This document shows positions 17,702 through 23,983 of a stretch of 64,000 nucleotides of DNA, in pieces. The notes under the pieces are model-generated. The model was not told where the DNA came from and ran no database searches. It worked only from the letters and a program-made list of their open reading frames with translations. How positions within the stretch are numbered: the first letter of the stretch is position 1; every line of letters begins with the position of its first letter. This DNA comes from an uncultured Gemmata sp. (GTDB lineage Bacteria; Planctomycetota; Planctomycetia; Gemmatales; Gemmataceae). Location of the stretch: positions 1 to 64,000 of the forward strand of contig CALDUT010000012.1 of assembly GCA_937924775.1 (NCBI GenBank), read 5' to 3'. Position numbers and translations under genes: made by a program.

Positions 17702-19462
17702 ATGCCACCGAAGATCACGAAGACCACCCCCGCGTCGGCCAGCACGGCCCCGCTCAGCTTTGATCCGACCAATCCTTTCATCGTCCAATCCGACCGTTCC
17801 ATCCTGGTCGAAGTGGACAATCCGAAGTACGCAGCGGCCCGCGACGCGCTGGCCCCTTTCGCCGAGTTAGAAAAAAGCCCCGAGCATATCCATACCTACC
17901 GCATCTCGAACTTGTCGCTGTGGAACGCCGCTGCCGCCGGCTTCACCGCCGCGGAAGTGCTGACGGTCTTGCAGCGGTACACCAAGTTTCCCATTCCCCC
18001 CAACATCCCCACCGACATCGCCGAAACCATGGCCCGCTACGGCCGTGTACGGCTCGAACGCATCGATGCCCAGCGGCTGAAACTGGTGTGTGCCGATAAA
18101 CCCCTCCTCGCCGAGTTGGCCCGCAACAAGAAAATCCGTGACTACCTCGGTGAACGGCTCGACGACACCGCCTTCGCCATCGATCCTGCGTATCGCGGCG
18201 TGTTGAAGCAAGCGCTGATCACAGTGGGTTATCCGGCCGAAGACCTCGCCGGTTATACCGAAGGGGCGGCACTGCCGCTGGCTCTGCGTGCCACCATGGC
18301 CCACAACGGCCAACCGTTCGTGGTTCGCGATTACCAGCGGGAAGCCGCGGATGTTTTCTACGCCGGCGGGGATGCCCGCGGCGGCAGTGGCGTGATCGTA
18401 CTGCCCTGTGGGGCCGGCAAAACCGTGGTGGGTATCGCTGTGATGGCCCTCTTGCAAAAAAACACCCTCGTCCTGACCACGAGCATCACCGCAGTGAAAC
18501 AATGGCGGCGGGAAATTCTCGACAAAACGACGCTGACCGAAGACGAAGTGAAAGAATACACCGGGGAAACGAAGGACATCGGCCCCGTGACGATCGCCAC
18601 CTATCAGATACTCACCTACCGCCCGGACAAAACCGAAGACTTTCCGCACTTTGGCCTCTTTGAACAACGCGATTGGGGCCTTATTATTTACGACGAAGTT
18701 CACCTCTTGCCCGCTCCGGTCTTTCGCGTCACCGCGACGATTCAAGCCCGCCGTCGGTTGGGTCTGACGGCCACTCTGATCCGGGAAGACGGCCGCGAAG
18801 GCGATGTCTTTTCTCTCATCGGCCCCAAGAAATACGACGTGCCCTGGCGTGAACTGGAAACCCAGGGGTGGATCGCCAGTGCCAGTTGCACCGAGATTCG
18901 CGTCGCCCTGCCGGACGACAAAACCCGCATGGAATACGCCGTGGCCGATCATCGGGCCAAATACCGCATCGCCAGCGAAAACGTCGCGAAAGACGATGTC
19001 GTCGGCGAACTGCTGGCCCGCTACCGCGACCAACGCGTGCTGGTGATCGGCCAATACTTATCCCAACTGCGGCGGCTGGCCGAACGCTTCGATCTGCCGC
19101 TCATCACGGGCAGCACCGGCAATGCGGAACGCGAAGAACTTTATCACAAGTTCCGCACCGGTGAGGTCCGCCACCTGATTCTCTCCAAAGTCGGCAACTT
19201 CGCCATCGACTTGCCCGATGCCAACGTCCTGATTCAGGTGAGCGGCACCTTCGGCTCGCGTCAGGAAGAAGCGCAGCGACTGGGCCGCATCTTGCGCCCC
19301 AAAGGCGACGGCGGCTCGGCCCACTTCTTCACCCTCGTCACCCGCGACACCCGCGAACTCGACTTTGCCCACCACCGGCAGATGTTCCTCACCGAACAAG
19401 GCTACAGCTACGAGATTTGGGATGAACGCGACCTCCTCCCCGCCCAGCGCGAAGTCGGGTGA
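17702..19462 (+). CDS. Bacterial XPB-type DNA helicase
   Basis: The protein has 586 residues from ATG 17702; an upstream TTG at 17675 adds nine residues. The N-terminal damage-recognition-like domain (residues 20-200) precedes two RecA-like lobes: Walker A PCGAGKT (235-241), DEVH box (331-334), GLTATLIRED (354-363) with the RED triplet that marks XPB, and the motif VI-type QRLGRILRPKG near the C-terminus. XPB translocases open DNA in nucleotide excision repair in eukaryotes and archaea; bacterial members are less well understood. The next gene and the one at 21833 encode partner-family modules. It is the first gene of the likely functional group. Confidence 0.95.
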   Translation: MPPKITKTTPASASTAPLSFDPTNPFIVQSDRSILVEVDNPKYAAARDALAPFAELEKSPEHIHTYRISNLSLWNAAAAGFTAAEVLTVLQRYTKFPIPPNIPTDIAETMARYGRVRLERIDAQRLKLVCADKPLLAELARNKKIRDYLGERLDDTAFAIDPAYRGVLKQALITVGYPAEDLAGYTEGAALPLALRATMAHNGQPFVVRDYQREAADVFYAGGDARGGSGVIVLPCGAGKTVVGIAVMALLQKNTLVLTTSITAVKQWRREILDKTTLTEDEVKEYTGETKDIGPVTIATYQILTYRPDKTEDFPHFGLFEQRDWGLIIYDEVHLLPAPVFRVTATIQARRRLGLTATLIREDGREGDVFSLIGPKKYDVPWRELETQGWIASASCTEIRVALPDDKTRMEYAVADHRAKYRIASENVAKDDVVGELLARYRDQRVLVIGQYLSQLRRLAERFDLPLITGSTGNAEREELYHKFRTGEVRHLILSKVGNFAIDLPDANVLIQVSGTFGSRQEEAQRLGRILRPKGDGGSAHFFTLVTRDTRELDFAHHRQMFLTEQGYSYEIWDERDLLPAQREVG

Positions 19463-19629
19463 AGCCGCCATCCCCTCAACCCCGACCGCCCTGGAACGCC
19501 CGAGCCAGAAGGCCAGACCCACAGGACGCGTCTGGCCCCGGATAAACCAACTTCCGCCCGCGGTAACTGTGCTGTAGTGAAGCCCCCCTTTCCCGTGACA
19601 AGCCCCAGAGCCAACAGGTGCCCCGAAGA

Positions 19630-19857
19630 ATGAACCATCCGATCGCGCGACTTCCGGCGAAATTGCACCGGCGAGTGTGCCTGGTCTTGACCGAAGATGC
19701 TGTTTTGGCTGAAGAATTGCTCGCCCGGAAGAAACTGGCGGCGGAAGTGGCCGGGCGACTGTCGAACAACGTTTTACTGATTCGCCCCGGCCGGCTTGAG
19801 GTGGTCTTGGAAGAACTCCGCAAGATGGGTCACACTCCCCAAATAATCGGTAAGTGA
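19630..19857 (+). CDS. Stand-alone XPB/Ssl2-partner C-terminal module
   Basis: The 75-residue protein starts at ATG 19630 with a GAAGA site; an upstream GTG at 19618 is possible. The central segment (CLVLTEDAVLAEELLARKK) and the block RLSNNVLLIRPGRLEVVLEE align with the final 60 residues of the large protein at 21833-23983 (RLGPQALVVRPDDLPALRAV), sharing RL, L, RP, L, L, G and T at matching spacings. This is the C-terminal subdomain of the Helicase_C_3 family that accompanies bacterial XPB. It begins 168 bases after the XPB stop. I infer a small partner or decoy for the helicase. Confidence 0.7.
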   Translation: MNHPIARLPAKLHRRVCLVLTEDAVLAEELLARKKLAAEVAGRLSNNVLLIRPGRLEVVLEELRKMGHTPQIIGK

Positions 19858-20148: not shown

Positions 20149-21171
20149 ATGTCATCCTCTCTCCCAACTCGATCCCGTGCCTTTACGTTGATTGAGCTAT
20201 TGGTGGTGATCGCGATCATTGCGATTCTCATCGGCTTGTTATTGCCGGCGGTGCAGAAGGTCCGCGAGGCCGCCGCGCGGATGCGTTGCCAGAACAATCT
20301 GAAACAACTGGGTTTGGCTATTCACAATTACCAAGATTCGAACAACCGTCTCCCGCGGAACTATCAGCAGGTCGGTGGCAATGTGTGGGAAGCCGTCAGT
20401 GCCAGTGTCCAGATTCTGCCCTACATCGAGCAAGCCCCATTGTATACCCAATTTGAGGCCAACCGGACGAACTGGGGTTTTGTCTATGGCACGCTGTTGA
20501 ACACGGAATTGTCGATTTTCAAATGCCCCTCGGCCCCCGCGGGTCCGCGTCGGGGAACCAACCCCAACGGTTGGGATGGCCCCGGTTCTAACTACGGTTG
20601 GTGTACGGGGAGCTCGATCGAGACGGTGTGGGCTGGCGACCGCTTCAACGGTATGATCTCGTACCAAACCGATCGGCGTTTCGCGGATGTGGTCGACGGT
20701 TTGTCGAACACGATTCTGGCCTCGGAATTCCTCTCGGGGGCGTCGTTCTCCAACAACCCATCGCAAGGCCGCTATCCCTACGACATCTTCTACGTCGGTG
20801 ATGGCCTGTTCAATGCCGTGGCCAACCGCAACTTCCCGACCGTGGCTGAACTGAACGCCATCGGCAGTGCCACGAAGATTGGGCTGCGGTCGAACAATGG
20901 GACACTCTGGGGTTGGTACGCCGCCGCACAATCCACCTTCAACACCGCAGCTCCGCCTAACTGGCAACACCCCACCACCGGTGGCAACTGCTGCCCTGGC
21001 GGCGCGCACGACTGGGGCTTTGGCATCATCCCGCCCCGTAGTGCTCACCCCAATGGCGTCAATGCGGCCTTCGGCGACGGTTCTGTGCGGTTTATTCCCA
21101 ACAACATCGATGTGCTGACCTTCCAATTGCTCGGTCACCGCAACGATGGACGGCCCATCCCGAACTTCTAA
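20149..21171 (+). CDS. DUF1559 protein with type IV prepilin N-terminus
   Basis: The protein has 340 residues from ATG 20149, preceded by AGAGGG at 7 bases. The N-terminus carries the prepilin motif RAFTLIELLVVIAIIAILIG, followed by the planctomycete DUF1559 signature (VQKVREAAARMRCQNNLKQL) and a globular domain with the H-X9-DG-like end (HPNGVNAAFGDGSVRFI). These proteins form a very large family in Planctomycetes; a pseudopilin-like secretion or cell-surface role is inferred. The next gene encodes a small lipoprotein, 28 bases downstream, a frequent pairing. Confidence 0.95.
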   Translation: MSSSLPTRSRAFTLIELLVVIAIIAILIGLLLPAVQKVREAAARMRCQNNLKQLGLAIHNYQDSNNRLPRNYQQVGGNVWEAVSASVQILPYIEQAPLYTQFEANRTNWGFVYGTLLNTELSIFKCPSAPAGPRRGTNPNGWDGPGSNYGWCTGSSIETVWAGDRFNGMISYQTDRRFADVVDGLSNTILASEFLSGASFSNNPSQGRYPYDIFYVGDGLFNAVANRNFPTVAELNAIGSATKIGLRSNNGTLWGWYAAAQSTFNTAAPPNWQHPTTGGNCCPGGAHDWGFGIIPPRSAHPNGVNAAFGDGSVRFIPNNIDVLTFQLLGHRNDGRPIPNF

Positions 21172-21199
21172 CGGCCTTCAACCCAAGGACTCCAACGCT

Positions 21200-21538
21200 A
21201 TGATGTACCGACTGGTTGCTGTAGGAACGCTCACACTGCTTCTAGGAATTGCCGTGGGTTGTGGGCCTCCGGGCCGCGTTGAAGAACGCACCATCGAGGT
21301 GAAACCCAATACCGAGCTGGAACAGGCCAAACAGTATCTGAAAAACTACGCCAACGGCCAACCTCTGGGCAGCGAGGTGACGAGTTTCACCCATCTGGTG
21401 GAATCGGTACGCCGGGACGACCCCACCCGTGCCGAAATCCTCGAAAAAGGATTCGCTGAACTGCAAAAGCCGGGGGTCAATGTCGCGGCAAAGGCTAAGG
21501 AAATCCTTAAGCAACTCGAACCGCGGCCCACCGGCTGA
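21200..21538 (+). CDS. Small lipoprotein paired with DUF1559 gene
   Basis: The protein has 112 residues from ATG 21200, with AAGGA 10 bases upstream; the frame from 21146 overlaps the preceding gene. The N-terminus MMYRLVAVGTLTLLLGIAVGC ends in a lipobox (GIAVGC, Cys21), predicting lipid attachment. The mature protein is a charged helical domain (KPNTELEQAKQYLKNYANGQ, RAEILEKGFAELQKPG). No known domain is recognised. Its place between the prepilin-like gene and a strong terminator suggests a two-gene operon. Confidence 0.75.
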   Translation: MMYRLVAVGTLTLLLGIAVGCGPPGRVEERTIEVKPNTELEQAKQYLKNYANGQPLGSEVTSFTHLVESVRRDDPTRAEILEKGFAELQKPGVNVAAKAKEILKQLEPRPTG

Positions 21539-21579: not shown

Positions 21580-21832
21580 CTGGCCATTTGGGTGACTCGG
21601 GCTGCTCCCGTGAATGATTCACCCACAGGCATCGGGGTGAACCGGTGCCGGGATGACCCAGCACGTTGATACCGGCAACCACTATTCCCCTCACGCGCGG
21701 CTCTTCGTGACGCAACTCGCCAACCGTCGGTCCTACAATAATCTCAAGCGGAAATCCGGGGGGCCAAGCCGATGCCCAATGGAGACGGGGACGACCGCGA
21801 GTGAATTCCCGGGAAATCGAGGGAAGCCGGAG

Positions 21833-23983
21833 ATGGAGTTCGATTGGTCGGGTCGATGTCGGGATACGCTCACTCGCTACGAGGAACCGCTGTTGCGGGC
21901 GGTGGCCGAAAAATTGGTGCGACCACGGACCAAACTGCCTTCCGCCGAACTCGTCGAAAAGATAGTCACAACGCTGACCAATGCCCCAGTGATTGACCGC
22001 CGCCTCAAAGAGCTGCCGCCCGCGGCCCGGCGGATCCTGGCGATCCTCGGATGCAGCCGGCAACCCTGTTGGAAAATTGGACACCTCCTGACGATCCTTG
22101 CGGCCTTCGACCATCACGACGGATTCACCCCAGTTCAAAGCCTGCTCGAAGCCGGCTTGCTATTCCCCGTCCTCGAGGCCACCACCGCGCCGGTGAGTGA
22201 TTTCACGACCTGGTATGGCGCCGCCGGGATGAACGCGGCAAGGGTGTTCACGCATCCGCAGGTCGCGGCTCGGTCGCGAACCGATGCATGGGAGTGGCCG
22301 CGTGACCCCACCGACGCTTCCCTCGCCGTAACCGAGGATCAGCCGCCCGCCGCCGCGGCGGCCGCCGCGCCCACCCCTCCGGACGCGGTCCGGCACGCCG
22401 ATGGGTGGGAATGGCCCCTGCGGTTGGCCGTGGTGTGGCAGCAAGTCCACGCGGAACCGGTTCGCCTCACGCAAAGCGGCACGCTATTCAAACGCGATCT
22501 GCAGCGGCTGCAAACCGATGCGGTGCTGACGGCAGCTCCGGTCGAACAACCTGTTTCCGTGAGCGATGCGGGGGTTTTGGCCTTACTGTGGGCCCAAGCG
22601 GCGGGTTTGGTGGAAGAACGCTCCGCCACGTTGGACGCCACAGCGTTCCCCGCGGTGTGGGCAGGGCCATTGGGTCCGCTTCTGAGCGAGCTATTCGCCG
22701 CGTTGTGGCTGGTGGACGCTTGGGAGCCGCTGGGGGGCTACACCCCCGCCGATAACCCGATGGTTCTTTCGCCCACACCGACGGCGGGTTTGCTCAGCCT
22801 GCTGCTGGCCCGGGAATGGACTTCGCCCCGGGCGATCGCGGCGTGGTTGTGGTCCCATCATCCCTCGTGGGCTGGCTCGTTGCCTGCCAGTGCGGCCCGG
22901 GAACAGGGCACACCGTGGGTGAAAGCCTGGTTGTGGGGAGTGGCGTACCCTTTGGGAGCTGTGGAGGTAACGACGGATCAGGTTCGCTTGTCGGCCTGGG
23001 GGCGGCATTGGTTGTTCGGGGAGCGTGAACCGGCAACGCCACCAACATTCCCGCAAACGCTAGTGGTTCAGCCCAACGCGGAGATTCTGGCCTACCGGCA
23101 AGGACTGACGCCGGAATTGGTCGCGTCGCTGTCGCGTTTTGCGCGGTGGACGAGTCTGGGGCCGGCCTGCACCCTCGAGCTGACCGCAGAGCAGACTTAC
23201 CGCGGCCTCGAAAGCGGCTTATCACTGCCTATGATCGTCCAGACACTCAACCGGCACGGCCTGCGACCGCTTCCACCGGGGGTGGCCGATTTGCTGCAAC
23301 GCTGGGCCAGCAAACGCGAACGCATCACCGTGTTCACGTCGGCGGTCTTAGTGGAATTTCCCACCCCGGCGGAGCTGGAAGCCGCCCTGGCCCGCGGCCT
23401 GGTCGCCCTCCGCCTCACCGACCGCATCGGCATGACGGCCGACGGCAGCGAACCTGCCCTCACCCATTTTCGTCTCATCGGCAATCGCGATTACGAAGCC
23501 AAACCGCAACGCTGTGTGCAGATGGCCGATGATGGCATCACCCTGACGGTGGATACCCCGCAAGCCGATCTGCTGCTAGAAGCGGAAATCGGCCTGTTTG
23601 CCGAGGCCTTACCGGTGGAAGCCAATGGTACCCGGAAGTATCAGCTCAGCGCCGCCACATTGCGGCGGGCGCTGGCCCATGGTCGTTCCCTCGCCGACAT
23701 CGACGCCTGGTTTCTCGAACGAACCGGTGCGCCGCTATCACCCGCCGGCCGCTTGCTCTTGTGCGGCTCACAGCTCGAACCCTGGCACGCCACGCCGCTG
23801 TTGGTCCTGACGGTTCCCACCACCGAAATCGCCGACGGCCTGATGCAATGGCCGGCCACGCGTCCGCGAATCACCGAACGCCTCGGACCGCAGGCTCTGG
23901 TCGTGCGGCCGGACGACCTCCCCGCCCTCCGCGCGGTCCTGGCGGAACTGGGCATCACCATCGACAGCGGCCCGCCGCGCTAA
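21833..23983 (+). CDS. XPB/Ssl2-like helicase-associated protein (Helicase_C_3)
   Basis: The protein has 716 residues from ATG 21833 (MEFDWSGRCRDTLTRYEEPL) with GAGGGA upstream; the open frame extends to 21653 but that part is not family-like. It lacks Walker motifs. The C-terminal domain (residues about 500-716), with YEAKPQRCVQMADDGITLTV and the end module LVLTVPTTEIADGLMQWPA then RLGPQALVVRPDDL, matches the XPB/Ssl2 N-terminal/helicase_C_3 family that accompanies XPB helicases in many bacteria. The middle has winged-helix-like stretches. It follows the XPB gene by 2.4 kb, with two unrelated genes between. Confidence 0.85.
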   Translation: MEFDWSGRCRDTLTRYEEPLLRAVAEKLVRPRTKLPSAELVEKIVTTLTNAPVIDRRLKELPPAARRILAILGCSRQPCWKIGHLLTILAAFDHHDGFTPVQSLLEAGLLFPVLEATTAPVSDFTTWYGAAGMNAARVFTHPQVAARSRTDAWEWPRDPTDASLAVTEDQPPAAAAAAAPTPPDAVRHADGWEWPLRLAVVWQQVHAEPVRLTQSGTLFKRDLQRLQTDAVLTAAPVEQPVSVSDAGVLALLWAQAAGLVEERSATLDATAFPAVWAGPLGPLLSELFAALWLVDAWEPLGGYTPADNPMVLSPTPTAGLLSLLLAREWTSPRAIAAWLWSHHPSWAGSLPASAAREQGTPWVKAWLWGVAYPLGAVEVTTDQVRLSAWGRHWLFGEREPATPPTFPQTLVVQPNAEILAYRQGLTPELVASLSRFARWTSLGPACTLELTAEQTYRGLESGLSLPMIVQTLNRHGLRPLPPGVADLLQRWASKRERITVFTSAVLVEFPTPAELEAALARGLVALRLTDRIGMTADGSEPALTHFRLIGNRDYEAKPQRCVQMADDGITLTVDTPQADLLLEAEIGLFAEALPVEANGTRKYQLSAATLRRALAHGRSLADIDAWFLERTGAPLSPAGRLLLCGSQLEPWHATPLLVLTVPTTEIADGLMQWPATRPRITERLGPQALVVRPDDLPALRAVLAELGITIDSGPPR

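Follow-up and report, generated by a model that had tools for sequence, protein, structure and literature searches.

A conserved small gene beside XPB in an uncultured Gemmata sp. probably encodes a distant bacterial relative of p8 from TFIIH

A 64,000-nucleotide stretch of an uncultured Gemmata sp. contig (CALDUT010000012.1, positions 1 to 64,000, hereafter the window) carries a small open reading frame (ORF) downstream of the gene for the DNA-repair helicase XPB. This ORF is a real, conserved gene, and its product is probably a stand-alone, distant bacterial homologue of p8 (Tfb5/GTF2H5) that works with a large p52 (Tfb2/GTF2H4)-like protein on XPB. Because the small protein resembles p8, the smallest protein of TFIIH, a human complex for transcription and repair, and the large one resembles its p52, a part of TFIIH seems to have a bacterial counterpart. 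The gene conservation, gene order, homology and fold reported below were computed here. The small protein is called p8-like, as a distant homologue and not a filed family member, because the cut-off of the Pfam Tfb5 model was not reached. The features of the window are as follows.

17702..19462, + strand, XPB helicase of 586 aa, start codon ATG 17702 (NF045503 repair_heli_XPB, 873.7 bits with a cut-off of 610; Pfam)
17777..18037, + strand, clutch-like domain in the N-terminal part of XPB, about residues 26-112 (PF13625 at 26-153; profile match to large clutches 1 and 2)
18038..18241, + strand, second N-terminal domain of XPB, about residues 113-180, homologue of the small protein (hhalign P 6.8e-5 with the small protein, 3.9e-7 with the large tail)
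19630..19857, + strand, small gene for a p8/Tfb5-like protein of 75 aa (ORF with ATG start; conservation; profile matches)
19669..19827, + strand, residues 14-66 of the small protein (ungapped hmmsearch alignment to yeast Tfb5)
20149..21171, + strand, DUF1559 prepilin-like gene between the small and large genes, outside the module (PF07596, PF07963)
21146..21538, + strand, lipoprotein-like frame between the small and large genes, outside the module (ORF, no significant family)
21653..23983, + strand, large p52/Tfb2-like partner (PF13625; hmmsearch to Tfb2/p52; Foldseek to p52, E 6.1e-8)
23048..23326, + strand, HubA/MD2-like clutch 1 of the large protein, residues 406-498 when numbered from 21833 (hmmsearch match with the HubA region of Tfb2; VIA Z of at most 15.7 against the XPB clutch 72-163)
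23327..23500, + strand, large middle domain, adjoining the end of clutch 1 and placed like the C-terminal domain of p52 (AF2 confidence low; weak small-family match, P 0.0019)
23510..23773, + strand, large clutch 2, in which the clutch fold recurs (hhalign against clutch 1, P 4.1e-8)
23783..23953, + strand, large tail, p8-like fold, homologue of the small protein (hhalign P 6.6e-7 with the small protein; VIA Z 6.3 to 3dom_B)

Conservation and genomic context of the small gene

The small ORF begins 168 bp after the XPB stop codon, with GTG at 19618 as an alternative start. The gene was found at E < 1e-10 in 34 of the 41 related genomes searched, with protein identity of 80-89% within the genus and 40-69% beyond it, and the protein has a conserved N-terminal stretch, R-x-P-V-K-x-H-R. 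The frame, which the preliminary description had called strictly open, was intact in all 34 genomes, with no internal stop. The 15 least-diverged pairs had dN/dS ratios (Nei-Gojobori) of 0-0.08, and the ratio for the window against locus L111 was 0.047; most of the 2,485 pairs were saturated, and the 974 usable ones had a median of 0.24 and a maximum of 0.78, with 39 pairs above 0.5. Intact frames and ratios near zero in the closest pairs uphold the earlier preference for a functional stand-alone protein over a degraded duplicate. A degraded, functionless fragment of the large gene, which a short ORF beside its parent family could bring to mind, is highly improbable: it is contradicted by these selection data and by the intact frame in 34 of 34 genomes, by retention of the small gene where the operon is broken up, e.g., in genome G014, and by conservation deep enough to include Deinococcus. 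The small protein matched no family in Pfam at E ≤ 10 and none in NCBIfam, and no relative was present among 207 pattern matches in viral contigs.

The order XPB-small-large was seen in 53 of 72 GTDB loci. Of these loci, 59 had XPB within 3 kb upstream in the same orientation and 60 had the large gene downstream, with median gaps of 77 and 98.5 bp, respectively; neither was near the small gene in 6 loci, and some loci stop at contig ends. Among the 41 genomes, XPB and the large gene were each found in 34. Thirty-four genomes had both the small and the large gene and 7 had neither; for the small gene and XPB, the numbers were 33 with both and 6 with neither. These counts are non-independent because the genomes are related. 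G031 held the small gene without XPB, and G023 an XPB fragment without the small gene. In G014, the small gene and XPB were 1 Mb apart and the large gene was on another contig, with all three retained. About 2 kb with other genes separates the small and large genes in the window and in G012. This gap was 30-280 bp in most relatives, that of G012 being sized like the window's.

Across 392 Planctomycetota genomes, XPB was found in 166 and the small profile matched 13; 9 of 11 matches (G000 and G032 excluded) were 36-113 bp from XPB. Inspection of 28 Planctomycetota XPB loci gave a small-gene match at E ≤ 1e-4 at 12 and none at 16, an absence that counts against a p8-like role. To judge from loci L191-L218, a part of the phylum has a large ORF of about 490 aa as the next gene after XPB, without the small gene. 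All three Deinococcus plasmid loci examined encode, in this order, XPB, a protein of 99-115 aa annotated as hypothetical and a large protein annotated as helicase-associated. The small ones, encoded by p8-like genes at L220:5762-6061, L223:6259-6588 and L224:6255-6602, matched the small profile with E 1.2e-10 to 1.6e-9 among 2,480 ORFs (from the 28 Planctomycetota XPB loci and seven plasmid loci). A tblastn search of the plasmids with the small protein of the window gave no match; since the Deinococcus plasmids do hold a divergent relative, tblastn misses relatives at that depth. To judge by eye, the large protein of Deinococcus similarly has a tandem duplication and extends about 95 residues past it.

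In Paenibacillus and Gloeocapsopsis, the large gene was beside XPB and no small gene was seen between them. A hypothetical protein adjoining the large gene in Actinomyces was considered as a relative of the small protein and rejected, as its sequence reads as a membrane-type protein. Rv0862c of Mycobacterium tuberculosis is presumably a large-type gene beside XPB, and a literature search on it returned nothing.

Domain homology of the small protein, the large protein and XPB

The preliminary description had aligned the small protein by eye with the last 60 or so residues of the large one. The aligned motif is insignificant on its own, because Pfam and NCBIfam searches found nothing and pairwise BLASTP gave E 12 against the large protein and E 26 against XPB, neither significant. 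At the profile level, the proposed homology was confirmed, with P 6.6e-7 for the small protein and the large tail and none of 200 column shuffles reaching the score. Helicase_C_3 (PF13625), against which that description had proposed a comparison, is itself unmatched by the small protein in the Pfam scan. Along the large protein, the small profile gave P 2.5e-6 in the segment of residues 601-718 of 718 and P ≥ 0.0065 in ten other segments. Profile-profile comparison of the small protein gave P 5.9e-5 with the full-length large protein and P 3e-4 with the N-terminal region of XPB; these scores were each reached by 0 of 200 column shuffles, and a reversed-profile control gave P 0.25.

When the proteins were cut into domains, hhalign placed the small protein, the large tail and XPB residues ~105-190 in one group (P 6.6e-7, 6.8e-5 and 3.9e-7) and large clutch 1, large clutch 2 and the XPB clutch in another (P 4.1e-8 to 4.8e-6). 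Matches between the groups were weak, the one with P 8.7e-4 stemming from an 8-residue overlap of the XPB cuts. In the large protein and in XPB alike, the small protein thus matched the domain next to the clutch fold on its C-terminal side. Since the domain cuts fall into two clean homology groups, the large protein has, to judge from its sequence, the unit of clutch and p8-like domain twice in tandem, and XPB carries a third copy of the small-like domain. The middle domain of the large protein matched the small protein weakly, with P 0.0019 over 34 columns. The large frame has its first start at 21653, ATG 21833 being the likelier one; against Pfam at E ≤ 10 the large protein matched PF13625 alone, leaving the curated Tfb2 model unmatched. 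Its AF2 model had a pLDDT of 88.3, with blocks 491-560, in the middle domain, at 44-79. Poorly predicted alone, this domain could need a partner.

In two genomes, XPB gave two separate matches that part at residue 308/309 (G025:C1:15820-15920 and G026:C125:10527-10630). Both are one open frame, as if with an in-frame insertion of about 33 aa.

Resemblance to TFIIH p8/Tfb5 and p52/Tfb2

The idea of a p8/p52 pair was set down ahead of the profile search of PDB (177,635 sequences), in which the small profile was built from 40 small proteins and the large profile from 38 large partners. The small profile found five distinct Tfb5 sequences with E 0.0013-0.0021, the next match having E 0.36. The alignment was ungapped over 53 residues and scored 22.0 bits, a score reached by none of 300 column-shuffled profiles (best 8.0 bits). 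The more divergent alignment A4 weakened the Tfb5 match to E 0.028-0.04, a ribosomal protein ranking ahead of it with 0.021. The Pfam Tfb5 model (PF06331) was over its cut-off in none of the 41 genomes. Its sub-threshold matches were at noise level (9 of 41 genomes versus 5 of 14 controls), and those that hit the small gene (G034 and G032) or the large tail (G027) carry no weight because such matches also occur elsewhere. The large profile, searched independently, found yeast Tfb2 with E 0.0011 and human p52 with E 0.03, the first unrelated sequence having E 0.57. The preliminary description had recognized the homology within the pair, which stood; its resemblance to p8 and p52 had gone unnoticed there.

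The AF2 model of the small protein had a pLDDT of 85.3 and a pTM of 0.67. In Foldseek, Tfb5/p8 occupied ranks 1-8, but the matches were weak (E 0.04-0.59, none ≤ 0.001). Superposition on Tfb5 chain 3dom_B gave a VIA Z of 5.9 with an rmsd of 2.5 over 56 residues, Z 5-6 being middling. The top VIA row was XPB 171-296 with Z 6.5, a tie with Tfb5 by the rule of the tool; the C-terminal part of p52 followed at about Z 4.9 and the unrelated aIF1 at Z 5.1. A conserved protein with an unrelated job, e.g., nucleic-acid-binding or regulatory, could share the beta-alpha-beta-beta-alpha layout of p8 and travel with XPB, and the weak Foldseek E-values and the Z of 5.0-5.1 for aIF1 and other small folds fit it. 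It is nevertheless an improbable reading, as the sequence-profile matches are specific to Tfb5 and the independent search with the neighbour gene leads to p52, with which p8 is known to partner.

The large tail gave Z 6.3 to 3dom_B (rmsd 2.2 over 56 residues), so the small protein and the large tail, homologous with P 6.6e-7, both superpose on this chain and have one fold in common. All 18 Foldseek matches of the large model with E ≤ 0.001 were p52/Tfb2, the best at 6.1e-8. Residues 18-497 of the large model aligned to p52 17-400 with Z 14.6 over 192 residues, with an rmsd of 18.5 because the domains are placed differently. The nearly invariant R497 of the large protein aligned with Tfb2 R450, and E22 and the nearly invariant D23 of the small protein are at or next to the place matching p8 D13. 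A contact of Tfb2 R450 with p8 D13 is reported in PMC9557730. Tfb2 E447 is not conserved in the large protein of the window (K494).

The mutual homology of the small protein, the large tail and XPB ~105-190 also fits a duplicated tail of the large protein, or of XPB, that folds and acts alone, for example as a competitor in the tail-binding site that damps the XPB/large complex, its likeness to p8 coming from one old common fold. The Z of 6.5 for XPB 171-296, slightly above the 5.9 for Tfb5 and tied by the rule of the tool, is in line with such an origin. We consider it unlikely, although less so than an unrelated job, since, among PDB sequences, the small profile picks up Tfb5 but neither XPB nor p52, which makes Tfb5 its nearest known sequence relative, and since retention in single copy together with both partners fits a subunit.

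A proposed p8/p52-like module with XPB and its possible origin

The comparison with TFIIH covers three parts, XPB, a p52-like and a p8-like protein. With p8 (PF06331), the small protein shares a length of about 70 aa, the ungapped 53-residue profile match and a fold common to the C-terminal part of the p52-like partner, and its gene adjoins XPB; its predicted strand-helix-strand-strand-helix fold may be that of p8 as well. It differs in being bacterial, under the Pfam cut-off and equipped with the N-terminal R-x-P-V-K-x-H-R. The large protein matches p52 in the HubA/clutch profile and fold and in the succession of a clutch and a p8-like region. In contrast to p52, it has two such units in tandem, and its Pfam match is Helicase_C_3 only. 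In the N-terminal region of XPB (clutch plus DRD-like domain), the small protein has its homologue at residues ~113-180 (P 6.8e-5), but there the domain is fused to the helicase, whereas the small protein is free-standing. Archaeal XPB-Bax1 is likewise a small operon-type XPB partner system, in which Bax1 modulates the XPB ATPase, according to PMC13024598. Bax1 is a nuclease, whereas the 75-aa small domain has no sign of one.

As described in PMC7708078, p8 and the C-terminal domain of p52 have the same fold and pair in TFIIH, the p52 clutch and the N-terminal domain of XPB form a pseudo-symmetric dimer, p52/p8 stimulates but also limits the XPB ATPase, and stimulation of this ATPase is known for Chaetomium p8. 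By analogy, the bacterial trio would be the same three parts as in TFIIH. Through its clutch domain, the large protein would bind the N-terminal clutch domain of XPB, and the small protein would pair with the large one and control the XPB ATPase. We infer the pairing, the XPB contact, the ATPase control and a role in repair from TFIIH.

In phmmer, bacterial XPB matched eukaryotic XPB (E 6e-85) more closely than archaeal XPB (E 1e-39). Because of this proximity and the presence of the partners, a bacterial root of the module is worth testing. Tentatively, the XPB-p52-p8 module may have existed as an independent bacterial repair machine, perhaps passed to eukaryotes from bacteria and not from archaea, its three proteins having duplicated from one clutch plus p8-like unit. 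Two such units are still present in the p52-like protein of the window and one in its XPB. According to a 2012 statement, no homologue of p52 had been found among bacteria. Literature searches, with subscription papers mostly outside reach and a prior mention therefore possible, found no paper on bacterial p52 or p8, which suggests that the module is unreported.

In human TFIIH, p52 and p8 regulate XPB, and p8 defects cause trichothiodystrophy, according to PMC8617094. The module would supply the missing partners of bacterial XPB, and the three-gene bacterial version would be a minimal system for the control of XPB by p52 and p8 without the rest of TFIIH. It would also open the question of where this part of TFIIH came from to phylogenetic tests.
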